Origin: a virus
Virus record (IMG/VR): IMGVR_UViG_3300049484_000055
Location: 1-21,660 of that record
DNA: 21,660 bases
Direction: 5' to 3' (one strand)
Every line of letters starts with the position of its first letter. Position 1 is the stretch's first letter. Positions 6,944 to 21,207 of this stretch are shown here, in pieces. The position numbers and the translations under genes were made by a program. The notes under the pieces were generated by a model that saw nothing but the letters and a program-made list of their open reading frames with translations, was not told where the DNA came from and made no database searches.

Positions 6944-7432
6944 ATGACTTATACTTGGAGACCTGCTATTGGTCCAGACGTATCACAAATCGTCAAAATA
7001 GCACAAGACCACTTTGAAACTGAAATAGATACAATCTTTACCCCAGATCCTGTTGCGTATAGTCGCAATATCACACTCGCAATCGTCAATCAATTCTATG
7101 GTCCAACTACCGAACTAGTATCAGTAGCAGTAGACCCTAACAACAATATTGTTGCCTATACATGGGCTAAGACCGGGGAACGTAGTCCCTGGAGTGATGA
7201 CGAAATGGTTATCGTCAAAATGGCTCATGTATCTCTACATTTGTCAGCAAGAGAAAGAGTCAGATTGGTCACAGACATGTTAGAACTGTGGTCGGCCTTT
7301 GCTACTTTGGCGCAGGTCTCAATTATATGTTCTACCACAATGCGAAAAGACCAAACTGCCTTTCTCAAACTACATGAACGTCATGGTTATGATGTTCGCG
7401 GTAGTTACGCTTACAAAAAATTGAACACTTAA
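6944..7432 (+). CDS. GNAT-like acetyltransferase-fold protein
   Basis: This 162-residue protein is the only gene on the plus strand. The N-terminus YTWRPAIGPDVSQIVKIAQ has the typical opening strand and helix of GNAT N-acetyltransferases, followed by strands around VSVAVDPNNNIVAYTWA. The C-terminal FLKLHERHGYDVRGSYAYKK (140-159) matches the closing helix-strand pattern. The acetyl-CoA loop, usually R/Q-x-x-G-x-G/A, is not intact: the matching region (LHLSARERVRLV, 99-110) has no glycines. It may therefore bind acyl-CoA poorly or serve a structural role; GNAT-like folds are also reported among internal virion proteins of T7-like phages. It is divergent from the small-terminase gene and convergent with the 55-aa gene. 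The target is unknown. Confidence 0.65.
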   Translation: MTYTWRPAIGPDVSQIVKIAQDHFETEIDTIFTPDPVAYSRNITLAIVNQFYGPTTELVSVAVDPNNNIVAYTWAKTGERSPWSDDEMVIVKMAHVSLHLSARERVRLVTDMLELWSAFATLAQVSIICSTTMRKDQTAFLKLHERHGYDVRGSYAYKKLNT

Positions 7433-7682: not shown

Positions 7683-8114
7683 TTACTCCAATGTTACTTT
7701 AAGCATCCAAATAGATTTCTCTAAATCTAATGCTTGGTCTTGACCATAATTACTAATTTCTTCATAGCCTTCACTATCAGCGATAGCAATAAGTGCTTTG
7801 TAATCATCTAGCAAATGTTCTAAATCCATCATTACTGTTTCCAATAATGTGTCTGCTTTACCTTCAATTGCATCTGTAGGTATTGTGCTTTCACTGATTA
7901 CATCATTAATATCGCAAGGCATGTATTCATTCATGCTACGTAATATCTCACCGATTTTGTCAATTTGTTCTTGTCTACGTGTGTAAATGCCTTCAAGCAA
8001 TTTATGGTCGCTACGAAAGTTTCTTCCAGTTACATTAACATGTGCCGCATGACTACGAAAGTATGCGACAAAGTTATTTTTGAAGATTAGTGTTAGTTGT
8101 TCTGTTGTTCTCAT
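7683..8114 (-). CDS. Dps-like ferritin-family protein
   Basis: This 143-residue helical protein has the ferroxidase signature of Dps (DNA protection during starvation) proteins. In the stretch AAHVNVTGRNFRSDHKLLEGIY and the following IDKIGEIL, the residues H25, H37, E41, D52 and E56 have the spacing of the Dps ligands H31, H43, D47, D58 and E62 (Listeria numbering). The G-x-x-F-x-x-x-H pattern between the histidines is also kept. The tryptophan usually next to the first histidine is Val here. Dps proteins form 12-mers that oxidise and store iron at subunit interfaces and often coat DNA; there is no Lys-rich N-terminal tail, so DNA coating is doubtful. The gene lies among virion genes, just before the 55-aa gene. 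A TTAAATA site sits 5 bases upstream of the ATG. Confidence 0.75.
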   Translation of the reverse strand: MRTTEQLTLIFKNNFVAYFRSHAAHVNVTGRNFRSDHKLLEGIYTRRQEQIDKIGEILRSMNEYMPCDINDVISESTIPTDAIEGKADTLLETVMMDLEHLLDDYKALIAIADSEGYEEISNYGQDQALDLEKSIWMLKVTLE

Positions 8115-8118
8115 AGTA

Positions 8119-10530
8119 TTATTTAAACCTATATTTTTCTAGCAATTCTAAAGCGTTTTTAACTAACTTTACATCACCCTCATATTTGATACTTGGTAAT
8201 TGGTCTCTTAATGATTTCTCAAACGCATCACGTTGCGCTTGTGTCATATCAAATATTTTACCTTCAGTTGGTGACATTTCGCTTCGTGGCACATCTTGCT
8301 TCAATGCTTTAAATGTATCCTCAGGTGTCATCATTTTGCTGACGTTTTTAGGTGCTCGTTTCTTTAACACATTAATATCTGCTTTATTACCTGACTTGTC
8401 ATATTGAGCAATTAACTTGTTGTCAGCATCAAGGACTTTTACATTCTTACCACTGTCAACTTCCATAGTAATAGATTTACCATTTTTAGTTCCAGTCAAT
8501 ACCATTGAACCATCTGGATTAACTTGTTTAGTCAATATAGAAATTTCTGGATCAGGCTTAAATGTTGCTGGCTTTTCTAATTTAGTTACTTCACCTGTTT
8601 CTTTATTAGTTTCTTGAACTTTCTTCAATAAACCTTCAAGTTTGCCTGGTTCAGATTTAGTTTCACCGACTTCAAATCCTTTAGATTTAGGTCCTGCTTT
8701 CTTACCAGTTAATTCTTGATACATCATGCGAATAACTTGTTCTTGTGTCATACCAGCAATTTCTGGCACGCTATCAAATCCTGCTTTAACAATACGTTTA
8801 GCCATACCTAACAACACATTGTCTTTGTTATCCGCAATAGCACCTAAGTCAATACTTTGTGTTTGTGTTTTATCATTGATTGCTGTGCTTGCTCCACCAT
8901 GCTCTGGATTTCTACCAGCCATGTAATCATTGATAATATCTCTAGCACTTTGTGTTATTGCTTGTGGTCCTTGCTTTGCCATTTCTGCTTCTTGCGCAGG
9001 TGTAATTGCTGGTGGAGGATTCTGTTGAAGTTTTGCTCGTTCTAATGCTAACTTTTCAGCAGGTGACCAACGTTCACTTGGTAATGATTCTATTGCCGTA
9101 GGTGCTACTGGACCTGCGACTGGCTGTGCGACCGGTGCTGGAGCAGGGCGGTATGAGCCTCTTGCACGAATTTCATCTAGTAATGCTTGATTCTTTGGTG
9201 ACAATTGTGCTGGAACTTGCTTATTAACAATTTCTTGTGTCTTTTGTATCGCCATTTGCTCAGGCGTCTGTGCAACAGGTTGTGGAGCATACTTTTGTTG
9301 TGCTCCTGCTTGACTAACTTGACTTATGTTTGTGCCAGCAACTCCCTCAGGTGAAACATACATTGGTCCAGGCGTAACTGGTCCTGGAGCAGGTAATCTT
9401 AGTTGTGGATTAGGTTGCAATGCTTGTTGCGCTGCCTGTGGATTAACAGGCATAGGAATCTGTCCAGATTTATAGCCTTCCATTTTAGCAGGTAAGTTAG
9501 GGTCAAAACCTTTTCGTGCTAACATCCAATCAGCAAGACCTTGTGTTCCAGCAACTACTGCTTTACCTGCTGTATACAATGGAATACCTGTTAATGCCGC
9601 ACTGCCAACGTCAACTGCCGCTGTCAATGGATTACGATATGTCTCACCAAGACGCTCACCAAATGCTCTCATGCCTTTGCCTTGTGCTGGAATCTCTCCA
9701 CCACTTGCTTTTAATGCTTGACGCTCAAACCAGTTTTGTGGTAACTGTTGAATTGGTGTTTCTGGTGGTAGTTGACCATAAGGTAACTCACCACGTTGAA
9801 ATGCTTCCCAATCTTGAGGCTTTGTAAATGTATTACCCAATGGAATACGTGAACTAGGAATTTGATAGCCCACTGGTGCTTCGCCTGGTTTAGCAATATA
9901 GTTAGTTGCTCTACCTAATGCGCCACCTACTATATCTCCTGCGCCACCCAATACTGACTTAGCGGCATTATATTCCATCGCTGCCGCTTTTGGCATGATT
10001 GGACTACCTAATAATTGACCACCACCAAATGCTAGTCTACCTGCAGGACTTGTTGGTTCAGGTCCAGGCACTAATGTGTTAGACCATTCCATACCAGGTA
10101 GTATATTTTTATATTCTGGTAGTTCAGGTAATGGTTGTTGTTCATTGCCAGCAAGTTGACTACGAACGCTTTGATATCTGTTTTGAATATCTTGCGCTGT
10201 TCTTGGTAAGTTAGCAACTTGATTGACAATTGTTCCAGGTAAACCTAATGGTGCTGTAACGTTACTCGCTACACCACGCAATGTTTGTAAAGGCATTTCT
10301 GCTGATGCTTCACGGTCTTGTTGACTCTCTGGTCTACGGCCTGCAGGACGATAAACACCAAAGGCAGCACCACCCTCACCCTCAACAGGTTTAGGCATTG
10401 CTGATTCAGGCTTTGCTTTAGTATAGTTAGGTAAAATATTAATTTTAATAGCATTAGCAATTTGCTTGTCATCCATCGTATCAGGAAATTCAACAATGCC
10501 TACGCCTGGAACATCTACTTGCTGTGTCAT
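8119..10530 (-). CDS. Large Pro/Gln-rich protein, probable internal virion (DNA-ejection) protein
   Basis: This 803-residue protein is of unproven function. It opens with a compact segment VDVPGVGIVEFPDTMDD (5-21) followed by KQIANAIKINI, a short N-terminal module that recurs on large structural proteins of tailed phages. Long Pro/Gln/Ala-rich linkers follow (about 35-130, 340-520), enclosing a Gly/Ala-rich stretch near 185-330. The C-terminal 250 residues look folded, with ITMEVDSGKNVKVLDADNK in a beta-rich part and a helical end. The start overlaps the stop of the 724-aa M15-peptidase protein as ATGA, so both are made together, as expected for ejection or internal core proteins. A tail-associated role is also possible. 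Confidence 0.6.
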   Translation of the reverse strand: MTQQVDVPGVGIVEFPDTMDDKQIANAIKINILPNYTKAKPESAMPKPVEGEGGAAFGVYRPAGRRPESQQDREASAEMPLQTLRGVASNVTAPLGLPGTIVNQVANLPRTAQDIQNRYQSVRSQLAGNEQQPLPELPEYKNILPGMEWSNTLVPGPEPTSPAGRLAFGGGQLLGSPIMPKAAAMEYNAAKSVLGGAGDIVGGALGRATNYIAKPGEAPVGYQIPSSRIPLGNTFTKPQDWEAFQRGELPYGQLPPETPIQQLPQNWFERQALKASGGEIPAQGKGMRAFGERLGETYRNPLTAAVDVGSAALTGIPLYTAGKAVVAGTQGLADWMLARKGFDPNLPAKMEGYKSGQIPMPVNPQAAQQALQPNPQLRLPAPGPVTPGPMYVSPEGVAGTNISQVSQAGAQQKYAPQPVAQTPEQMAIQKTQEIVNKQVPAQLSPKNQALLDEIRARGSYRPAPAPVAQPVAGPVAPTAIESLPSERWSPAEKLALERAKLQQNPPPAITPAQEAEMAKQGPQAITQSARDIINDYMAGRNPEHGGASTAINDKTQTQSIDLGAIADNKDNVLLGMAKRIVKAGFDSVPEIAGMTQEQVIRMMYQELTGKKAGPKSKGFEVGETKSEPGKLEGLLKKVQETNKETGEVTKLEKPATFKPDPEISILTKQVNPDGSMVLTGTKNGKSITMEVDSGKNVKVLDADNKLIAQYDKSGNKADINVLKKRAPKNVSKMMTPEDTFKALKQDVPRSEMSPTEGKIFDMTQAQRDAFEKSLRDQLPSIKYEGDVKLVKNALELLEKYRFK
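8120..8126 (-). promoter_or_regulatory. TTAAATA element 5 bases before the Dps-like gene
   Basis: The minus strand reads GGTTTAAATAATACTATG. The element overlaps the stop of the 803-aa gene and is followed almost at once by the Dps-like ATG. There is no ribosome binding site at normal spacing; an AGG lies further up, before the element. Confidence 0.4.
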
Positions 10531-12701
10531 TCTAATTTTCCTGTTGTTGGATTATATCTACGAACTTTTGCTGGTGTTGTAGGTGCTGCCGGAGCATTAG
10601 GACTTGGAGCATTAGCCTGATTTACACTAGTTGCTTGTTGTTCGTATGCTCTACGACTTGCCGCAACATAATGTTCTAACCATTTCTTAACTTGAGCAGG
10701 ACTACTATTTTCATTAATCATGTTCTTGTTAATATATGCCAAATCTTTATCACTGAAACTACCCTTCAACAGACTTGCTAAGTTAGTTAAGTTTTCACGT
10801 TGTGCTAACTGCATAATGTCTGCTGTGTTTCTATACTCATCACTTTGAGTTTTCAATGGGTTCAATCTGTTGTTTGCTCTAGCAACTGCATTAGATCCGC
10901 CACCAAACAAGTGCTGATTATTTTCAAGCGCATCTAAGCCACGTTGTGCTTGATCCTGAATAGTATTCAAGTTGTTTAGTTTTTCATCAATTGTCTTTGC
11001 CGCTGTAGTTGCACGTTCTTTATTTGCGGCGGCTTGTGTTTCAATCGCAGCCTTTTGTGCAGGAATTGAAGGAACCTTATTGCCAGTCGCTGGACGCAAT
11101 TCCCAATGATTAGGATCATTTGCCAATGGACGATAGAAACCATTTTGTTCAGCGATTTTTGCTTGCTCAGGTGTCAACTTCATATCAACAGCATTTGCAT
11201 TTTGATGCTGACTTGTGCCTGGCTTAGCAATTGGATTACCACTTGCGGTAAAGCCTGTGCGACCTGCACGAACGCTTTCATCATACAACTGTTGTTGTTT
11301 TGCTTCATCACGAACACCACTGATAATAGGTAATCCAAGACGAGTTGCCATTTGAACAGCGTTTTCTGGTTGTGTTGGAGCAGCCTGACTTGAAGGAACT
11401 TGTAGACCTTGACCTGCAGCCTTACCTTGTTCACCTGCTTGTGCGCCCAAGAATTTCTGTTCAATATTTTGAGCAGGAGTTGTTAAGCCACTAGTGTCAT
11501 AACGCTTGTTACCAGATTCAAAGTATGTTTGATTTGTTCGTGGATCTGATTTAACCACACCTGTAATTTGAACAGGCTTACCATCAGGTCCTGTAACAGT
11601 TTTCTGCATCAATCCACCATGAACACCAGGCAATAAGTGTGCTTGTGTAGGTAATGCGGCGGCACTTAGTTTAGCAAGTGCTTCTTGACCTACAGATTTA
11701 CCACTGGCATCAAATCCTTTAATGATTTCACCATCTTTGTTACGATAGACTGTATACTTGTTACCATCTTCATCAACTGCACTACTCATTGTCTTAGTTG
11801 GGCTGATAAGTTCCATTTCTTTTTGAGCAAGGTCTGTCAATCCTAAACGTTGTAGCAAAATCGCTTTGATATAACTACCTTCGCTTTTGTTTTCACGCAT
11901 GTAACGTGACAAATCGTTAGGTGTAGCGTTTTGAAGTTCTTCGTTTGCTTTATCAATGTTGCGTTGCTTCAAATAATCTTCAGCAATTAAACGATTTGCT
12001 AATGTTTTAGTGCCTTCATTAACATCTTTGTTAGCAAGCAATTGAGCAAACATACTTCTACGCTTTGATGGATCTTGTTCATTACCAGCATCAATAACAG
12101 CCTGATGATGTTGCTGTTCCATAGTCAATGGTTCAGTTTCACGTTCAACTGTTGGAGTAAATCCTGATGGTGCTGGAGCAGGTGCCTGAGCCTGTGGGTT
12201 AACAGGTGCTACTTGTTGTGGTGGCATTTGTGCAGGACCTGCAACTTGAATGCCAGGACCAGGAGTCGGAGGCTGACCAATGTTAGGCATTGGCGTATTC
12301 GCTTGAATTGGAGCCTGTGCTACAGGATTAACTGGTGCTACTGGAGCAGGAGCCGGTGCAGGCATAGTTGCTTGTGGCATTTGCGTTTCAGGCGCAACTG
12401 GAGCAGGAACTTGAGTTGTTACTGTGTGTTCAGTGCTACCATCACCATAAGTTTTAATTGTTTGCTTTTTAACTTCATCATCAGGGCCTGGAGCCTGAGG
12501 TTGCATAACATTGCTAAACATTTGCCCAGCATTGTTAATAGTTTGTTGTGCTTGACCAACTCTATTTTGTATTGCTTGACTAGCAATATCACCTAGACCA
12601 GCACCTTCTGGCAAACCAGCCATCATCATAGCACGGCGCTTGCGTGTTTCTTCTTCGGTTTCGTTACCGTATCCTGAATAATCTGTAAATTGGTATGCCA
12701 T
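10527..12701 (-). CDS. Virion protein with M15-type peptidoglycan peptidase domain
   Basis: This 724-residue protein is a likely virion-associated lysin. The domain at about 448-537 has the M15/VanY pattern: SGVRDEAKQQQLYDE from S461 with R464, then GTSQHQNANAVDM, and NHWEL. The predicted zinc ligands are H499, D506 and H532. Such enzymes cut D-Ala-D-Ala or L-Ala-D-Glu bonds of peptidoglycan and help DNA pass the cell wall. The N-terminal 45 residues are charged, residues 70-185 are a Pro/Ala/Gln-rich linker, and the parts flanking the domain are helical and rich in Gln and Asn, suiting an internal ejection protein. TTAAGG about 8 bases before the ATG at 12701 supports the start. It lies between the 236-aa and 803-aa genes in one unit. 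Confidence 0.78.
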   Translation of the reverse strand: MAYQFTDYSGYGNETEEETRKRRAMMMAGLPEGAGLGDIASQAIQNRVGQAQQTINNAGQMFSNVMQPQAPGPDDEVKKQTIKTYGDGSTEHTVTTQVPAPVAPETQMPQATMPAPAPAPVAPVNPVAQAPIQANTPMPNIGQPPTPGPGIQVAGPAQMPPQQVAPVNPQAQAPAPAPSGFTPTVERETEPLTMEQQHHQAVIDAGNEQDPSKRRSMFAQLLANKDVNEGTKTLANRLIAEDYLKQRNIDKANEELQNATPNDLSRYMRENKSEGSYIKAILLQRLGLTDLAQKEMELISPTKTMSSAVDEDGNKYTVYRNKDGEIIKGFDASGKSVGQEALAKLSAAALPTQAHLLPGVHGGLMQKTVTGPDGKPVQITGVVKSDPRTNQTYFESGNKRYDTSGLTTPAQNIEQKFLGAQAGEQGKAAGQGLQVPSSQAAPTQPENAVQMATRLGLPIISGVRDEAKQQQLYDESVRAGRTGFTASGNPIAKPGTSQHQNANAVDMKLTPEQAKIAEQNGFYRPLANDPNHWELRPATGNKVPSIPAQKAAIETQAAANKERATTAAKTIDEKLNNLNTIQDQAQRGLDALENNQHLFGGGSNAVARANNRLNPLKTQSDEYRNTADIMQLAQRENLTNLASLLKGSFSDKDLAYINKNMINENSSPAQVKKWLEHYVAASRRAYEQQATSVNQANAPSPNAPAAPTTPAKVRRYNPTTGKLE

Positions 12702-12711
12702 TTGTTAAACC

Positions 12712-13422
12712 TTAAATCTTAATGCCCATGCTTGTGCCAGTTTGTGACTGACCTTGGGTTCCAGCAAAGTTAGCATTATAACTACCTGAAGGTGTTCCAA
12801 AGATAACACTAGCATATTGATTGTATAATTGTTGTGGTGTCATTGCCGCTGTAATACCTTGACCTGCGGCTGCTAATCCTTGACCAATGCCACCTTGACC
12901 TAAACTTGCTAAACTTTGTGCGGCTTGTGCTCTTTGTGCCGCAATTTGCGACTGAACTTGTGCCGCTGCCTGTGCTTGAGCACCTGCGGTTTGTCCTGCT
13001 GTCTGTTGTGCTGCCAATGCCTCACGTGCTGAACCTAATTCACCAGCACCTCCAAAGTTAGCCTTTTGGTTAGCAATGTTTTGCATATACTGACTTTGCG
13101 CAGGAGCAAGAGCCGCTTGTATTTGTGTTCTTTCATAGTCAGGATTGAACAAACTTTCTAAACCAGTGATACCTGTGCGTAATGCACTTTCACCTGTTTC
13201 ACCTAATGTTTGACCAGCTTGACTTGCTGTGCCTGCTAATTCTTGCGCGGCATTTGTGACTCCACCCACGTTTCTATTGTAAACATCTGTAGCACCCAAC
13301 ACAGCATTTTGATATGTTGGAGCGATTGTGTTTGTAAAGAACTGAGTTTGAGCACCAATTTGTGCTTTTTGTTCGTCAGTTAATTGTGGAGTTGTATATG
13401 AACTTGATTTTCCGAAACTCAT
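12712..13422 (-). CDS. Ala/Gln-rich protein, probable internal virion or DNA-transfer protein
   Basis: This 236-residue protein is rich in Ala, Gln and Gly. A helical N-terminal half (TDEQKAQIGAQTQFFTNTIAPTY onwards) precedes FGGAGELGSAREALAAQQTA near 130 and a long Ala/Gln helix (AGAQAQAAAQVQSQIAAQRAQAAQ), ending in a Gly/Ser/Thr-rich tail. It has no signal peptide or catalytic motif. Small Ala-rich helical proteins next to larger internal proteins are typical of podoviral DNA-ejection sets; the assignment is by composition and position only. AAGGA lies about 9 bases before the ATG and a CTAAATAC site lies about 20 bases before it. It begins a unit with the 724-aa and 803-aa genes. Confidence 0.6.
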   Translation of the reverse strand: MSFGKSSSYTTPQLTDEQKAQIGAQTQFFTNTIAPTYQNAVLGATDVYNRNVGGVTNAAQELAGTASQAGQTLGETGESALRTGITGLESLFNPDYERTQIQAALAPAQSQYMQNIANQKANFGGAGELGSAREALAAQQTAGQTAGAQAQAAAQVQSQIAAQRAQAAQSLASLGQGGIGQGLAAAGQGITAAMTPQQLYNQYASVIFGTPSGSYNANFAGTQGQSQTGTSMGIKI

Positions 13423-13470: not shown

Positions 13471-16400
13471 TTACACTATCGTAGTTGTCGTAGTTGTTGG
13501 TGCTACTGGTGTAACATTAGCCTGTTGTCCCTTCAATAACGCCTGATATTCTGCTAGAGTCATAAAAGGTTGATAAGGAACTGTATTTAATTGTCCATTG
13601 TTCATAGCACTAACATTACCTTGCGTGTTAGTAACAGAGCCAGGATTTGCTAATGAATTATGATAATCAGCATAGTTCATCAATGGTTTGTATGCAATTG
13701 GATTAACTTGCTGACCAACAATTGGAGCACTAAAAGGTGTGGTTGAACTGAACTGATTGTATGTTGGATTTACAGGAGTCGCAACTTGATTTGGAGCGTA
13801 ACCCTGTGGAACCACTGGTTTACCCATTGCTAAATCTTGCAATTGCTGATAGTTCAATGTGCTAGTTGCAGCCTGCTGTAAACCAAAAGGTGTTCTTGGT
13901 GCATTTGGCGCTGTGTTATACAATGCTTGATTGAACGTTGGTCCCTGTTGCAATGCATGAGGTCCCCAGTAATACTTACTTTGAACATCATTAGTTGTAT
14001 GATAGAAATCAGGCACATTTGTTTCCCAGCCTGGATTTAATAAGCCTGAACTAAATGTAACATTGCCAGTTGTATTAGCAAGATTAGGGGATACATTAGT
14101 TGTTACGTTTGCGTTAGTGTTAGGTGTCCATACGTTTGTAATGACATTAGCGTTAGTCAATACATTACTGTTTGGTGTAACGTTAGGTATCACTACATTA
14201 GCATTAGGCACATACACATTAGGTATTACAACGTTACCTGGAGGTATAACTACATTACCTGGTGGTATTACAACGTTGCCTGGAGTAACAACTGTTGTGT
14301 TAGCATCTCTGTTTGCTGTAATTACCATATTACCGTCAGGTAAAACAGTTACATTGCCAGGAGTGTTGCTTCCAGTAGTGTTAATTAATACATTACCATT
14401 AGGCGTTCCAAATATGTTACCTATTGTAGTAGTATTTTGGAAAGTATTAGCAGTGCTATTGTTTGATGTAACGTTAGTATTTGTGCTAGAGGTGTTAATT
14501 ACATTATTAGCAGTTGAATTTGTAATTGCGGCATTTGTCAATACACTAGTGCTATTAGTGATATTACCAGTTGTAATGTTATTTGCAACCAAATTGTTAA
14601 TTATACTATTAGCATTGTTAATATTGCCGCTAGTAGAATTTTGAATGTTAGCATTGTTTAATATACTAATAGCATTGTTAATGTCACCAGTCAATGTATT
14701 GATTGTGGTCAAGCCATTAGCGTTGCTAGTAACATTGTTTAGATTGCCAGTAGTTGAGTTAGTGATGTTAGCATTATTTAATATGCTTAATGCGTTGTTA
14801 ACATCGCCTGCCAACGTGTTACTAGTTGTTAAGTTATTAGCATTGCTTGTAACGTTATTAATGTTGCTAGTAGTTGAATTCGTAACAGCCAAGTTGTTTG
14901 TTGTGCTAGTTGCGTTAGTTATTGAGCCTGTATTAGCATTAGCAACATTACCTGTATTGATAGTAGAAACACTATTTGCAATATCAGTTAATGATGCGTT
15001 ATTAGCAAGCAAATCATTAATTTTACTATCAATATTTGTTACACTACCAGTGTTTGTATTAGTTGCTGTGATGTTACCATTAGTTACAGTAGAACCAGGA
15101 GTTCCAGTTACTGTTCCAGTTGTTACGTTGTTAGCAATAACGTCACGTCCAGAACCTTCAGTTGGTGCTACTGGACCTGTATAGTTTGCGTTCGCTAATG
15201 TGCTGTCTTCAATTGTGGTAGTGCCTGGTCTGACTGGACCGGTTTGATTACCATTAATGTCAATTGTCTGACCGCCCAAATCTAAGCCGCTAATATGTGT
15301 GTCCACAGGGCCTTGGAATTGTGAACCATCCATGTTAACTGCTTGACCATTAATGTCAGCATAACCACTTGGACTGTTATAATCTCTAGTGATACCATTA
15401 TGAAACTGTCCTGGCTGTAAGTTAGCCATTGTGTCACGTTCAATTTGTTGTTGTTCTTGCACAACCTTAATGTCGTTAATAACTTTAGCGTTTTGCAACT
15501 GTTCGTTACTGAAGCCATATTGTTCTTGGAAATTTAATAATTCATCAGGATTATCCCATGGTGCGTGATTTTCAATAAACTGATTACGTGCGGCTGCGGC
15601 TTCTGGATCTTTTGCATCTGTTAATATTTGGTCTTGTTGACGAGCAATACTTGCAAGTTGTTTTTGTATCGCAGATGCCGTTACCATATCATTGTTGTTA
15701 TTTGCATCAAGTTGCTGTTGTGATAAGGACTGATATTGTTCTTGCAAACTATCATATGCATCTTTAGTTGCGCCTGTCAAATCTTCAGGTTTAGCAACGT
15801 TGCTTGTTCCAATACCACCGACTTCAACCCCATAAGGTCCTGTGCCATCGCTCTTACCAATTGATTGTATTACGTTTTGACCACTATCATTAACGACAAC
15901 ATTACCTGATGTATCAACGGCAACTTGGTAGCCAGGACCATATGTGTTTGTGATGTTTGCTACGATGTTTGCACCTTGATTGAAGGTGTCTAGTATTTGG
16001 TTGTATGCAGAAGTGTCACCACTGATTACAGCGTTGCCTGCATTGTTCAATAGACTGTCAAATACTTGTTGGTTACCAGTTGTCAATACATTACTTGCGG
16101 TAGATGTAAAGTTGGTCAATGCATCAGTGTTGCTTGTGGTAGCGATGGTATTTGCTGTATTGACATAATTGGTCAATGTATCTGTGTTACCAGTTGATGC
16201 AATTGTATTTGCTGTAGAAATGAAGTTTGTAGTTGCTTCAGTGTTACCTGCACTTGACACAGTGTTTGCTGAGTTAACAAAACTGTCAATAACTTGACTG
16301 TTACCTGTATTAGTTACCTTATCTAATGTGTTGATAAAGTCGCCCAATACGTCAGTGTTACCACTAGTAGAAATGGTATGTGTTGTGTTTAGTAATGTAG

Positions 16401-18264
16401 AACCTGTATCATTGCTTGCGCCTGTCAATAGATTAACAACGTTAGTTTTATTTTCTACGCCAGCGTTATATGCGGCGGTGTTAACCAATGCAGTAACAGC
16501 AGATTCCATATTGCCGCCACTAGTTACAAACGCTCCTGCGCCTGCACCTAACGTGTTCATACCTGTTGCATTTGTGACAGCACTATTAATTACACTTCCT
16601 GCAACACTGGTCAATGCCGCACTAGCGTTACCACCACTTGCGACAAACGTTGTGCCAGCGGCTGTGATAGCGTTTGCTGCCATGTTCAATATTGTTGGAT
16701 CAGTAATAATACCATTCAATGCATTGTTTACGCCGGTGTTAACGCCTAAACCTGCGGCTGCTATTGTAGTCAATGCTGTTTGAATGTTACCGCCCATTGC
16801 TAAGTTCAATCCTGCACTAGCAATTGCTGTTCCTGTTGCCGCACTAACGCCCAATTCTGTGGCAAGTATTTCGCCAACACCAGGCAACAAGAAACTACCT
16901 GCAACACTTAGGAACATTCCTAAACCACCACTCAAGTCGCTTGAACTTGCGCCTTGCGTTGTAATCTTACCTGTTGCTGGATCAATGTAATAATCAGTAT
17001 GTCCTGGACCTGTATATGTTGATCCAATGTATGGATTAACAACTTGTCCACTACTATTCACATATTGTGTATTTGCTACTTTAGTTGAGTAACGGTCAAC
17101 AAGACCATAATCGCTGTCACTAACTTGTGACACTTGTAAGTTTGCTAATTCTTGCTGAGTTAATGGAGTGTAGTCTACGTTGTCATAACCATTAGGTGTT
17201 GCTTTCAAATATGTTGGATTACCATAATCATCGTATACTTTTAAAACGTTAGCACTATCGTATGTTGTTGTTTGATGAATATCACCTAGATTACTAATAC
17301 CTTGATTCATCAATTGACGAGCAATGTCAAACGCAACTTGGTCTGCTGATGATAGTTTAGCATTACCATAAGCGCCAGTCAATGTATTGTAATCAAAACC
17401 AATGTTCTCTTGATTTGTTCCAAACGCACCACCACTCATTTTGGTAGTGTCAAAGTTCTTTTCAACTTGCAATGCTAAATTAGCCAATTGTTGTGCATCA
17501 TAACTCTTACCTGTATAGTCAACAACTGTCTTTGGCGCAGTAGTTGTAGTTGTTGCCGGAGCAACTGGGGCTGGAGCTGGGGCAGGGGCTGGAGTGTTTG
17601 TTACGTAATTGCTTGGAGGTTGTGTTACCACTGGTGCTGGAGGAGGTGTAACAACAGGAGGCGCAACTGGCGCAGGAGTTGTTACAATTTGTCCAGTAGT
17701 TGTGTCAATGGGTAAATCAATTGTTGGGCGATAATCATCATATGAGCCAGTCATATATGCTTTGCTCATTTGTTCTTGCGTTATTGGAACACTTACATAT
17801 TCGTCGCCACGTGGAACCAACGCATATGATTGACCTTCATCATTAGTAATTACGTTAACTTGTGCTGTTGGAGTAGGATTGTAGTTTGAAACGTAATTGC
17901 TTGGAGGTGCACTAACGACTGGTGCTGGAGGAGCGACTGGAGCAGGTGGGGCTGGAGGCTCAGGCGGAACATATGTTGGAACTGGAGTTCCTGCACTAGC
18001 TGGTGGCAAACTATTATTAATCTGAGCAACTGATATACCTGTAGCAACACTAAGGTCTGAAGCACTAACACCATACTGTTGCATAGCGTCTGCAATTTGT
18101 TGCGGACTTGGGTTATTTGCTATAAAATTTTGAATGTTTTGATAATACTCTTGAGCACTAGAGCCATTGTTTAATGCCCAAGATAGTCCTAAACTCTGTG
18201 GTTCTTCATAAAAAGATGGTCCTGTATCTTCATATACAGTGTAATAGTTTGATTGATTAATCAT
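13471..18264 (-). CDS. Giant Asn/Thr-rich tandem-repeat virion protein
   Basis: This is a 1597-residue protein I cannot assign to a family. In order: a helical N-terminus with IADAMQQYGVSASDLSVATG near 57-77; Pro/Ala-rich linkers (95-235) holding a duplicated PPSNYV (120, 216); a small folded part; a Gly/Ala-rich hydrophobic region at about 440-610 with three GGN-x-x-x-A-[LV]-T copies; tandem 19-residue units at 636-768; a helical Gln-rich section near 825-900; eleven 20-residue units at 1072-1291; a PPGNVVI triplet at 1328-1348; and a Thr-rich end. Cysteine is absent. The size, position and hydrophobic region suggest an internal/ejection protein; the Asn/Thr repeats would equally suit a fibre or adhesin. 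TAAGG lies upstream of the ATG, and a GTAAATA site overlaps the stop of the 301-aa gene. Confidence 0.6.
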   Translation of the reverse strand: MINQSNYYTVYEDTGPSFYEEPQSLGLSWALNNGSSAQEYYQNIQNFIANNPSPQQIADAMQQYGVSASDLSVATGISVAQINNSLPPASAGTPVPTYVPPEPPAPPAPVAPPAPVVSAPPSNYVSNYNPTPTAQVNVITNDEGQSYALVPRGDEYVSVPITQEQMSKAYMTGSYDDYRPTIDLPIDTTTGQIVTTPAPVAPPVVTPPPAPVVTQPPSNYVTNTPAPAPAPAPVAPATTTTTAPKTVVDYTGKSYDAQQLANLALQVEKNFDTTKMSGGAFGTNQENIGFDYNTLTGAYGNAKLSSADQVAFDIARQLMNQGISNLGDIHQTTTYDSANVLKVYDDYGNPTYLKATPNGYDNVDYTPLTQQELANLQVSQVSDSDYGLVDRYSTKVANTQYVNSSGQVVNPYIGSTYTGPGHTDYYIDPATGKITTQGASSSDLSGGLGMFLSVAGSFLLPGVGEILATELGVSAATGTAIASAGLNLAMGGNIQTALTTIAAAGLGVNTGVNNALNGIITDPTILNMAANAITAAGTTFVASGGNASAALTSVAGSVINSAVTNATGMNTLGAGAGAFVTSGGNMESAVTALVNTAAYNAGVENKTNVVNLLTGASNDTGSTLLNTTHTISTSGNTDVLGDFINTLDKVTNTGNSQVIDSFVNSANTVSSAGNTEATTNFISTANTIASTGNTDTLTNYVNTANTIATTSNTDALTNFTSTASNVLTTGNQQVFDSLLNNAGNAVISGDTSAYNQILDTFNQGANIVANITNTYGPGYQVAVDTSGNVVVNDSGQNVIQSIGKSDGTGPYGVEVGGIGTSNVAKPEDLTGATKDAYDSLQEQYQSLSQQQLDANNNNDMVTASAIQKQLASIARQQDQILTDAKDPEAAAARNQFIENHAPWDNPDELLNFQEQYGFSNEQLQNAKVINDIKVVQEQQQIERDTMANLQPGQFHNGITRDYNSPSGYADINGQAVNMDGSQFQGPVDTHISGLDLGGQTIDINGNQTGPVRPGTTTIEDSTLANANYTGPVAPTEGSGRDVIANNVTTGTVTGTPGSTVTNGNITATNTNTGSVTNIDSKINDLLANNASLTDIANSVSTINTGNVANANTGSITNATSTTNNLAVTNSTTSNINNVTSNANNLTTSNTLAGDVNNALSILNNANITNSTTGNLNNVTSNANGLTTINTLTGDINNAISILNNANIQNSTSGNINNANSIINNLVANNITTGNITNSTSVLTNAAITNSTANNVINTSSTNTNVTSNNSTANTFQNTTTIGNIFGTPNGNVLINTTGSNTPGNVTVLPDGNMVITANRDANTTVVTPGNVVIPPGNVVIPPGNVVIPNVYVPNANVVIPNVTPNSNVLTNANVITNVWTPNTNANVTTNVSPNLANTTGNVTFSSGLLNPGWETNVPDFYHTTNDVQSKYYWGPHALQQGPTFNQALYNTAPNAPRTPFGLQQAATSTLNYQQLQDLAMGKPVVPQGYAPNQVATPVNPTYNQFSSTTPFSAPIVGQQVNPIAYKPLMNYADYHNSLANPGSVTNTQGNVSAMNNGQLNTVPYQPFMTLAEYQALLKGQQANVTPVAPTTTTTTIV
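14221..14283 (-). repeat. Three 21-base units encoding PPGNVVI
   Basis: Three consecutive in-frame copies encode PGNVVIP at residues 1328-1348 of the 1597-aa protein. Related P-x-G-N-V-x-[IV] and P-N-V/P-N-A-N-V segments continue on both sides, so the triplet is the most recent part of a longer, decayed series. Confidence 0.85.
14392..15051 (-). repeat. Eleven 60-base units encoding 20-residue repeats
   Basis: Residues 1072-1291 of the 1597-aa protein divide into eleven units of exactly 20 residues without gaps. Most units begin T/S/A-G-N/D-I/V-N/T-N, with small or hydrophobic residues at fixed positions and an Asn-rich second half. The three central pairs (14524-14883) also show a 120-base higher-order period, two of them nearly identical. 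The strict register suggests a repetitive beta-solenoid-like or fibrous fold. Confidence 0.85.
15961..16416 (-). repeat. Seven to eight 57-base units encoding 19-residue repeats
   Basis: Residues 636-768 of the 1597-aa protein form seven units of exactly 19 residues, with a looser eighth before them (16360-16416). The consensus is N-T-D-x-L-T-N-F-[IV]-N-T-A-N-T-[IV]-x-[ST]-T-G. The end units have diverged most, the usual sign of an array grown by internal duplication. Confidence 0.85.
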
Positions 18265-18283
18265 TTATTTTAGCCTTATTCTA

Positions 18284-18290
18284 TATTTAC
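18284..18290 (-). promoter_or_regulatory. GTAAATA promoter-like element before the giant repeat protein
   Basis: The minus strand reads CAGTAAATATAG, including the stop codon of the 301-aa gene, with TAAGG between it and the ATG at 18264. It carries G at the first position, like the site at 5358, so it is a weaker match. Confidence 0.3.
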
Positions 18291-19192
18291 TGTTTCACAA
18301 CTTGAGCACTTAGACTACGAAAGCCAAACTCATCGCTTGTAACTTGACCTGATCCACTTGTAAAGTTAAACGTAACTTCAAGGATATACCAAAAGTATCC
18401 TGTCCAACTGAACTCAGGATCAGTGCTTGCTGAAACGTTAGGATCAGGCTGGTCAATAACAGTTGCAAACACAGTGTCAATCAAATCAGTTGAGCCTGTG
18501 CCTGTCAGTCCAGGAAATGTATAAACACGTTGTGCCACAGTTGCACGAAGATTAAATTTAACGTCAGGATTTGTTGGAAGCAAATCATTGAAACCATAAT
18601 ACTTGTTAATCTGAACTGTAACTTGTAAGTCTGCTGAACCACTAGGCACAAGATAACTTATAACTTGATCCAATTGTCCACTGATAAAGATTCTGTCAGT
18701 GCCACCAGTAACTGTTACACGTGCGTTTGCATCAGTTGACAATGGGTTAGAACCTGTGGTCAAACCTATCGTTCCGCCTGTTGATGGACTGTGCAAACTG
18801 TTGTAACTTGACAAGCGAACAATCACATAAGTTGTTGTGCATTCTACAACACCAATGGTTACATAGTCACCATCATACCAACTGTCTGTTACGCCTGCAA
18901 CAGTAATACCATTACCATTCGCAAACGGTGGTGTAGGTTCGGCAGAGGCAAACGTAAACTTTAATGTTCGTTCATCAAGTTGTTCGCTAGTGCTTAATGT
19001 TATTGGAGCCACATATAGATTTGCTAATGAACTTACAGTGTAGGGAACACGAAAGTTACCTGTCAACCATGCTGGTGTAAAACTACTAAACCCTGCAAAG
19101 TTCTGACCAAGACCACTGGGACCACTAAGCAAATAATTAACTGCTTCTGCGGTGCCTTCATCGTCACCAATTTCTACTGGATACTTAGCCAT
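18287..19192 (-). CDS. Structural protein following the tail-nozzle-like protein
   Basis: This 301-residue protein is of unknown exact role. Its N-terminus VEIGDDEGTAEAVNYLLSGPSGLGQNF is distinctive: an acidic start, a helix, then a Gly-rich turn, followed by FRVPYTVSS. The rest is Thr/Ser/Gly/Val-rich and beta-type, with several short domains (for example ITVAGVTDSWYDGDYVTIGVVE around 95-117, which resembles a segment of the 671-aa protein near ITFVDAYATAPYVAGQQIIISG). No signal peptide or catalytic motif is seen. The ATG overlaps the stop of the 671-aa gene as TAATG, so both are made together and probably join the same tail structure. Confidence 0.7.
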   Translation of the reverse strand: MAKYPVEIGDDEGTAEAVNYLLSGPSGLGQNFAGFSSFTPAWLTGNFRVPYTVSSLANLYVAPITLSTSEQLDERTLKFTFASAEPTPPFANGNGITVAGVTDSWYDGDYVTIGVVECTTTYVIVRLSSYNSLHSPSTGGTIGLTTGSNPLSTDANARVTVTGGTDRIFISGQLDQVISYLVPSGSADLQVTVQINKYYGFNDLLPTNPDVKFNLRATVAQRVYTFPGLTGTGSTDLIDTVFATVIDQPDPNVSASTDPEFSWTGYFWYILEVTFNFTSGSGQVTSDEFGFRSLSAQVVKQ

Positions 19193-21207
19193 TATCTATC
19201 GTCCTCAACCTGTGTGATTTGCCATGTTGCCGCACTGCACATCCACAATGCATTGTTACTTGTGTCACCAATCTCAATCGTGTTAACTCTGAATGCGTTC
19301 TGGTCAATCTGACACCATGGGTTAGTTGTGTCAATAGTCATAGTCACAGGCGTTTTGCTTAATGGTGTTGATGCGACACTCTCTGCACCCATAATTGTAA
19401 CAGTGACGTTACCTTTGTGTGTTGATGTTGCTGGATTGACAGGTAGTTCATTGTCGCCAACGTTAACTACTTCAGGTAGTATACGATGAACCATTAGTTT
19501 GCCGCTGTAATCTTTGAGCAACTTGATGTTGTCTCGTCTAAAGAAACTTTCAATGTCACCGTTGGGATTACTTGTAGTTTGAACGAAACTATAACCCTGG
19601 TCTTTCATTACCAGTTTACCATCTTCAACACCACGAACGTAAACAATTGTTCTGGAACCTAGATTAGGTTCCCATGTTGTAGTATCTTCATTGTAGATGT
19701 ATATAGGACTTTCAGTTCCTTGTGTTGCGTTTGTAACGTCACGTGGAGCCTGCCACATGTCTAAGTCATAACGATATGCAAGCATCTTGTTTGGAACTCC
19801 ATTGACGATCGGATTTAATGGACTAGCAAACTCAGGCTTAGTTGTGTAATAGACCTCAATCTGATTGCGTTGAGTGTTACACAACATGAATACTCTATCG
19901 TGATACTGTGGATCAAGTTGGTCAAAGAACCAATTCTTTGTTCGTTGATTGCCTAGACCTGTAAAGTCTTTGCCATCAAAGACCCAGAAGTCACGTGCAT
20001 CAACGCCATAGATTGTTCTGTCAGTGTTAGCAAAGCAATTACTTGTTAACATGCCACGACCTTGGTTAAACAAACGAACGCCAAGAATAGGTGCTGATGT
20101 TGTTGAATAGTTCAATGGACTGAACACAACAGTATCCCAATAACTGCACAAGAAGAATTGACCATTCATAGGGAAGGCATCAATTGCTGGACCACGCAAT
20201 GGAACTTCTAACTGGTTGGCTACGTTGACGATTGTTGGAACCCAAGTCAATGGTGCTTGATTCAATCCAAATGCTTGACTCCACTGAACAGTTACAGGAT
20301 ACTCAACTGTTTTAGTTTCTGGTTGTCCTGGCACAATGAAAACTTCTGCTGTCAAGTCTCCAGCAACAAGTATTGAACCAACGTTAGGTGTGTTATACAA
20401 GCGTAAGAAGTTTGCTTTCACACTCTTCCAGTTAGGGTTATAGTTCCATGTATACGCTGGACTAACACTTCCCAATGGTCCGCTTGGATAACTAGCACCA
20501 GGAACTGCAAGATAGTCAATTGTTGTAGTAGTGCTTGAAACTACTGTGAACTGACCATTAAAGTAATTGTTAACTCCACTGATAATAATCTGTTGACCGG
20601 CAACATAAGGTGCTGTCGCATATGCATCAACAAACGTAATACGCATTGTTACAGGATCAACATATGTAATGTCTTGAATCTCTGCAGGAATGATTAAGTT
20701 ACTATATTGAACCATGATTGGTAATGGATCCAAATCAGTTGCTTCAGGTAAGAACATAGGCGCTGTCCATGTGTCGTTAAAGAATGGAATCGTGCCGTTC
20801 CACGCTTCAGTAATGTTTGTGTTTTGACGGTAACCTAAGATTCCAGGACCGCCTGCACCACCTGGCGTAACGTCATACCAATCTGTTACACCATCACTTG
20901 CATACCAACGTCCAATATTATAATCAGGATCAGTAGGGTGTGCAGGGTCTACAGTATATGTTGCAACGATAAACCAAAACTGTCCACCGTTTCTAAATCC
21001 GCCACTGATGTATGTGGGAGTGCCAGGAACTGTTGAGAGGAACTCTGTGTCACCTGCGACACTACGCAAGCCACGAACGTCACTTTCAACGTTTAGTCCA
21101 TCGTTGTATTCATTTGGGCCTAATTGCGTTGAGGGAACGTCAGGCGTGAAACTCATTTTGGTGAAGGGTATGCGAACCTCTTCGTAACTTGATTTGATTT
21201 GTGCCAT
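19192..21207 (-). CDS. Tail nozzle / DNA-stabilisation-like structural protein
   Basis: This 671-residue protein probably forms the nozzle or portal-proximal part of the tail. It opens with FTKMSFTPDVPSTQLGPNEYNDGLNV, a segment typical of proteins of this kind (a description of which residues are read from the genome-facing strands, followed by beta blades). The core near 382-432, GRGMLTSNCFANTDRTIYGV then DARDFWVFDGKDFTGLGNQ, is a beta-propeller-like block seen in P22 gp10-like and T7 gp12-like proteins; the precise family is inferred, not searched. The protein is beta-rich throughout. A CTAAATAC site lies 29 bases upstream of the ATG at 21207. There is no normal ribosome binding site before it (ACCCCACTATAATG), which is odd for an abundant virion protein. 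Confidence 0.68.
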   Translation of the reverse strand: MAQIKSSYEEVRIPFTKMSFTPDVPSTQLGPNEYNDGLNVESDVRGLRSVAGDTEFLSTVPGTPTYISGGFRNGGQFWFIVATYTVDPAHPTDPDYNIGRWYASDGVTDWYDVTPGGAGGPGILGYRQNTNITEAWNGTIPFFNDTWTAPMFLPEATDLDPLPIMVQYSNLIIPAEIQDITYVDPVTMRITFVDAYATAPYVAGQQIIISGVNNYFNGQFTVVSSTTTTIDYLAVPGASYPSGPLGSVSPAYTWNYNPNWKSVKANFLRLYNTPNVGSILVAGDLTAEVFIVPGQPETKTVEYPVTVQWSQAFGLNQAPLTWVPTIVNVANQLEVPLRGPAIDAFPMNGQFFLCSYWDTVVFSPLNYSTTSAPILGVRLFNQGRGMLTSNCFANTDRTIYGVDARDFWVFDGKDFTGLGNQRTKNWFFDQLDPQYHDRVFMLCNTQRNQIEVYYTTKPEFASPLNPIVNGVPNKMLAYRYDLDMWQAPRDVTNATQGTESPIYIYNEDTTTWEPNLGSRTIVYVRGVEDGKLVMKDQGYSFVQTTSNPNGDIESFFRRDNIKLLKDYSGKLMVHRILPEVVNVGDNELPVNPATSTHKGNVTVTIMGAESVASTPLSKTPVTMTIDTTNPWCQIDQNAFRVNTIEIGDTSNNALWMCSAATWQITQVEDDR

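Follow-up and report, generated by a model that had tools for sequence, protein, structure and literature searches.

Phage tails are known to follow the principle of a constant anchor with a variable body, and receptor-binding proteins classically combine a replaceable body with a constant end. Among podophages, mosaic evolution has been described for the ejection proteins (PMC8954989), and in phage SU10 the nozzle gene (gp17) is followed by those for the needle (gp18), gp19 and the ejection proteins gp20-24 (PMC9509320). The window analysed here, a virus sequence of 21,660 bases taken at its full length and probably a fragment, encodes a portal of SU10 type (Pfam SU10_portal, E = 6.5e-44) as well as a nozzle, and the presence of both in one genome places it among the SU10-type nozzle phages. 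The genes that follow the nozzle on the minus strand include one of unusual size:

19192-21207, minus strand: tail nozzle protein, 671 aa (PDB 8zkk, 'nozzle gp16', E = 1e-10; phrog_3287)
18287-19192, minus strand: 301-aa protein, a conserved neighbour in relatives by synteny
13471-18264, minus strand: giant open reading frame, 1597 aa in one open frame, termed the slot protein
12712-13422, minus strand: conserved 236-aa protein directly downstream of the slot, by alignment; ejection-like by position only
10527-12701, minus strand: 724-aa protein carrying a peptidase domain of VanY type (Pfam VanY, E = 4e-6, a little above the curated cut-off)
8119-10530, minus strand: 803-aa protein with two GPVxP motifs, by motif search

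Against a small local database, the profile of the 671-aa protein also hit the nozzle ORF of SU10, gp17 (E = 1e-8). The 301-aa protein returned no PDB or SU10 match, and its proposed homology to the SU10 needle gp18 or to gp19 was dropped when no match was found. For the 236-aa protein, neither PHROGs nor the PDB gave a match; by eye it is similar to SU10 gp21/gp22, but hhalign gave this pairing a probability of 2.6% and a profile of 80 homologues retrieved nothing. Position and the peptidase domain suggest that the downstream genes are ejection-like. Across the clade these genes are adjoined by a gene for a Dps/ferritin-like protein (window 7683-8114; Pfam Ferritin, E = 1.6e-11), and a lone plus-strand ORF of 162 aa with the look of an acetyltransferase, but with no Pfam match, lies at 6944-7432. 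In relatives, genes named by inspection and position as capsid-like, adaptor-like and large, N/S/T-rich and fibre-like precede the nozzle, and because fibre-like genes are thus already present upstream, the giant gene is probably not the sole candidate for receptor binding.

The slot protein and its family

The initial annotation had described a single reading frame of 1597 codons and suspected that its product belongs to no named family. The frame is borne out, on the minus strand, and so is the suspicion, as neither Pfam nor PHROGs has a family covering this protein and no usable sequence match emerged from Pfam, PHROGs, phage records or the PDB. The protein contains zero cysteines, carries very little charge and is high in N, T and P, and the following parts can be distinguished:

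18025-18264, minus strand: small N-terminal module, residues 1-80 (blastp/tblastn matches within residues 13-123)
17530-18024, minus strand: Pro/Thr/Ala-rich linker, residues 81-245, with 39 Pro, by composition
16417-16929, minus strand: Ala/Gly-rich region, residues 446-616, by composition and blastp
16018-16359, minus strand: 19-residue array, residues 636-749 (leave-one-out p values; AF2 model m944f934699a7)
15226-15240, minus strand: GPVRP motif, residues 1009-1013, by motif search
15163-15177, minus strand: GPVAP motif, residues 1030-1034, by motif search
14452-15051, minus strand: 20-residue array of ten units, residues 1072-1271 (autocorrelation, leave-one-out p values, AF2, fold comparison)
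14224-14286, minus strand: three PGNVVI heptads, residues 1327-1347, seen in the sequence as a 21-bp repeat
13795-14052, minus strand: conserved C-terminal segment, residues ~1405-1490 (blastp, alignment, pattern), the sole match in the window

The N-terminal module, judged helical by inspection, also occurs in L122, L126, L132 and further records (blastp/tblastn). The Ala/Gly-rich region, common to the window, L146 and L132, is modelled with low confidence and contains one borderline hydrophobic segment at residue 450 (19-residue KD mean 1.65). The previously reported PPGNVVI triplet was found again, with its PGNVVI units starting at residues 1327, 1334 and 1341.

Relatives, all uncultured phages, were found via the nozzle and the 236-aa neighbour, and in them the slot is flanked by the 301-aa protein, which comes after the nozzle, and by the 236-aa protein. 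The 52 complete slot proteins are 267-1797 aa in length (median 739). What they have in common is a C-terminal segment of ~60-80 aa with many aromatic, Pro and Gly residues (consensus LNPGW..FY.T...QS.YYWG...Q.GPTFN..YN..P.AP.TP[WF]GLQQ), which a pattern search detects in 57 of 64 dereplicated slot proteins and which blastp with the giant protein matched in nearly all loci. The giant gene, carrying this segment between the 301-aa and 236-aa genes, is a member of the same family. The only other record found to resemble the giant protein over most of its available length is L146.

Outside the segment, the slot body changes far faster than its surroundings. The comparison covered the 29 phages for which all genes were available, using BLAST without low-complexity masking and counting proteins as unalignable below 10% coverage. 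Among pairs whose 236-aa proteins are 70-80% identical, slot bodies were unalignable in 57%; the corresponding figures are 12% for the next protein downstream and 0% for the 301-aa protein. The relative closest to the window in the 236-aa protein (L115, 83%) has about 8% of the slot body in common with it, little beyond the C-terminal segment; L146 is only 75% identical in the 236-aa protein, yet the relationship of its slot protein to that of the window extends over most of the length available.

Several further features of the family were recorded. A module HGRGDDTILAHITPEEAQLLKDRGGSGTINPDTGLPEF is found close to the N-terminus of slot proteins that are otherwise unrelated, in L115, L189, L110, L111 and L100 (12 of 64 dereplicated, by pattern), and the slot protein of L115 (1996-7452) has other, helical-looking repeats (SGYTANDVKNLINAGYTAPDLVELASTG...) where the window has its arrays. 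GGD/GGN helical repeats were considered as a second common slot module and set aside as not general (38 seen, 17 expected). A candidate membrane segment is present in 24 of the 52 complete slot proteins, and a general role as a membrane channel is doubtful on this sequence evidence. In L107, L109 and L114, GNAT-looking ORFs similar in size to the 162-aa ORF of the window directly precede the slot gene. The nearest named genome, that of podovirus ctfne034 (MW202484; L112), is a distant relative in which the slot holds a 100-aa low-complexity ORF; there, a 787-aa protein (18189-20552) that begins like the 301-aa protein and then takes on the look of a tail fibre replaces the 301-aa gene. No named phage encoding the giant protein was found, nor were prophage copies or a host link through bacterial genomes; for that scan the profile of the C-terminal segment was too diverse.

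A motif common to three neighbouring genes

The pentapeptide GPVxP is present in 52 of 72 slot proteins (72%; 6.3 expected), in 30 of 68 homologues at the position of the 724-aa protein (2.0 expected) and in 32 of 66 proteins at the second downstream position (2.0 expected). This amounts to 44-48% of the two large downstream proteins and to an enrichment of ~8-16 times expectation across the three families, under a first-order Markov null applied to a motif that had first been spotted in the sequences, and with counts for both downstream families that are inflated by inherited copies among related proteins. The motif was found in none of 70 236-aa, 16 301-aa, 16 nozzle, 18 fibre-like, 7 capsid and 51 portal proteins, and is absent from MW202484 and from the SU10 structural region searched. 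When slot bodies stripped of the conserved segment were scanned for 4- and 5-letter patterns without prior choice, no other enriched pattern was as widespread as GPVxP (38 of 64 bodies, 4.9 expected), and the strongest fold-enrichments belonged to family-specific modules such as NAWE and ILAHINPEE.

This distribution can be read as that of a virion sorting or docking signal, in which case unrelated whole proteins would be swapped into the slot and recruited by the motif and the C-terminal segment only, with the body irrelevant, and arbitrary repeat proteins used during genome delivery could be plugged into the slot. We consider so strong a version rather unlikely, and a proline-rich composition could favour GPVxP beyond what a first-order Markov null allows for. 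Separately, small proteins encoded 3' of the Dps-like gene (L111, 18594-18995; L114, 11554-11939) contain GP[AI]NP or NQYA..LFGTP stretches similar to the C-terminal NQYASVIFGTP of the 236-aa family, which may be a second linear motif in common. A literature search found nothing on GPVxP or on the slot, and the combination of an unnamed family, a constant C-terminal segment, bodies replaced entirely by unrelated repeat proteins and a motif across three neighbouring genes looks new.

The two repeat arrays

The initial annotation had counted eleven 20-residue and seven 19-residue units in the giant protein. For the longer repeat, autocorrelation over residues 1060-1310 reaches 0.32 and 0.45 at lags 20 and 40 (shuffle maxima: mean 0.21, largest 0.26). 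Leave-one-out profiles, compared with shuffles that keep the local composition, support the first ten units (1072-1271), weakly so for units 2 (p = 0.022) and 10 (p = 0.010), and the eleventh (1272-1291) is indistinguishable from chance (p = 0.45). The units are N/T-rich and nearly uncharged, with a mean amino acid identity of 36%, and include a 40-residue super-repeat at 1132-1211 (80% amino acid identity), in which units 4/6 and 5/7 form an A-B-A-B duplication. For the shorter repeat, lag-19 autocorrelation over residues 630-790 is 0.28 (500 shuffles, maxima with a mean of 0.17 and a largest value of 0.25), and both periodicities are real; five units are strong (636-730, p = 0.0002), a sixth is weak (731-749, p = 0.012), a seventh cannot be told from chance (750-768, p = 0.25), and a partial unit may begin at residue 617.

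The two arrays are predicted to fold differently. In the 20-mers, AF2 with alignments of relatives predicts strands at intervals of 20 residues (pLDDT up to 87) and forms a beta-helix from about residue 1105, with the parallel strands and the coil length (~18-25 residues) of right-handed parallel beta-helices, and fold comparison with VIA retrieved proteins of that class (Z 14-16, rmsd mostly 4-5 Å over ~220-265 residues), so that a right-handed parallel beta-helix is predicted. Foldseek gave no match at E <= 0.001 (E above 0.1), and the Pfam beta-helix/NosD families gave none at E <= 10 for the arrays of the window, L127, L133 and L146. In the 19-mers, AF2 with an alignment of relatives (three sequences only) predicts one alpha-helix per unit at a spacing of 19 residues (pLDDT 62-75), and the hydrophobic moment peaks at 100 degrees, the angle of an alpha-helix, against 110-120 degrees in the 20-mers. 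An alpha-helical array is thus predicted, with moderate confidence; its VIA matches are mostly designed helical repeats (Z up to 14), which may reflect merely a common arrangement of such repeats. The earlier idea of a solenoid with one repeat per turn fits the prediction for the 20-mers.

A common ancestral repeat had also been proposed for both arrays. The profile alignment, which the initial annotation had named as a possible refutation, shows no similarity: the best cyclic alignment of the two profiles, with one gap allowed, scores 13.6, against 15.3 +/- 2.8 for column shuffles (p = 0.71). Together with the different fold classes and hydrophobic-moment angles this leads us to reject a single origin, and the shared TGN that had been taken as a sign of kinship reflects a common N/T/G-rich composition. 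The perfect register, described as free of insertions and deletions, holds inside the array of the window but not across relatives, as L146 differs in both arrays: in the 19-mers it lacks 38 residues (two units) and has a 2-residue insertion, and in the 20-mers the differences come mostly in steps of 10 residues, with two of 5.

Such repeats could also belong to a mostly disordered, low-complexity linker or assembly protein under weak constraint, with repeats arising by slippage and folds that are AF2 artefacts. AF2 has a known tendency to turn perfect repeats of random sequence into beta-solenoids that are confidently predicted yet unrealistic (PMC11795689), the pTM of the models of the two arrays is only 0.42-0.43, and the low charge and high N/T/P content of the protein agree with disorder. 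Against this, the units are imperfect (mean amino acid identity 30-36%) and have nevertheless kept their register, and L127 and L133 show the 20-residue register as well (autocorrelation 0.39-0.40 at lag 20, against 0.07-0.10 at lags 19 and 21). Moreover, pS is 0.69-0.88 and pN 0.09-0.25 in all but one comparison of duplicated units and aligned L146 blocks (the exception, 19-mers 674 and 712, is less clear), and since differences are mainly synonymous, purifying selection acts on the protein sequence. We regard the disordered protein as unlikely; the imperfect, nearly uncharged units and their recurring register favour, short of proof, a real 20-mer fold. Within the variability of the slot, the arrays are ordinary elongated modules.

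Candidate roles: tail appendage or delivery apparatus

The position of the gene leads us to infer that the giant protein is associated with the virion. It might then form an external tail appendage, such as a central tip fibre or a needle-like or tailspike-like structure, with its C-terminus on the nozzle and a host-facing repeat body that diversifies with the receptor. The replaceable body and constant end of the slot protein fit this well, the giant gene comes after the nozzle as the needle does in SU10, and the beta-helix model matches the P22 and HK620 tailspikes (Z about 14.5-14.8), tied with non-phage polysaccharide enzymes. The fibre-like genes already upstream of the nozzle, the lack of a significant Foldseek match and the sharing of GPVxP with the downstream rather than the fibre-like proteins speak against it, as do the many slot proteins that are only Pro-, Gly/Asp- or Ala/Lys-rich in sequence, with no obvious host-facing fold. 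An external appendage is the main rival to the delivery role, and the less likely of the two.

The reading we prefer, at a rough probability of 0.5, is an exchangeable virion protein that belongs to the tail/ejection apparatus and docks through its C-terminus. The giant gene would be one allele within a family defined by position, whose modular members, found in uncultured podophages of the nozzle type, are most likely virion proteins. The conserved C-terminal segment, kept in nearly all members, would dock the protein on the particle, and the body would be exchanged as a cassette built from the elongated repeats of each lineage, here helical 19-mers and beta-helical 20-mers. GPVxP, common to the slot and two large downstream proteins, may allow the same partner to recruit all three, and the most likely role would be that of a tail/DNA-ejection component that bridges particle and host envelope during genome delivery, with a body that diversifies against a variable host layer. 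The balance tilts towards the delivery apparatus, and away from the external appendage, because the motif is common to the downstream genes and separate fibre-like genes exist, although a stable beta-helix would be awkward cargo through a narrow tail. If correct, the delivery-apparatus reading would describe an exchangeable module in the tail/ejection apparatus of aquatic phages that is attached via a short segment and possibly a five-residue motif, account for large unrelated proteins replacing each other at one position, and provide an annotation handle for giant 'hypothetical' phage proteins and a possible peptide tag for loading phage particles.

Among described systems, the podophage ejection proteins (T7 gp14/15/16, P22 gp7/16/20) resemble the slot protein in their position beside a peptidase-bearing protein. 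They differ in that PHROG and PDB profile searches detect no sequence homology, neither the giant protein nor five other slot proteins matching any ejection family among the PHROGs, and in that replacement of the slot body is more extreme. Tail fibres and tailspikes with a constant anchor likewise conserve one end and exchange the remainder, but the conserved end of the slot protein is C-terminal or subterminal, its body is low-complexity and repeat-based, and its linear motif is common with downstream, not fibre-like, proteins. The 20-residue array is similar to the P22/HK620 tailspikes, NosD and the AlgE epimerases in its predicted right-handed parallel beta-helix, and unlike them in its strict, N/T-rich, almost uncharged 20-residue coils and the absence of a sequence family match and of an identified catalytic domain; the likeness to tailspikes is one of fold only. 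SU10 itself differs in having a 343-aa gp19, of another PHROG, between its needle and ejection genes, in the absence of the C-terminal segment and GPVxP from the region searched and in gp21/gp22 that are not detectably related to the 236-aa neighbour, whereas the portal type, the nozzle match and the order in relatives of capsid, adaptor-like, fibre-like, nozzle and further genes are all shared with SU10.
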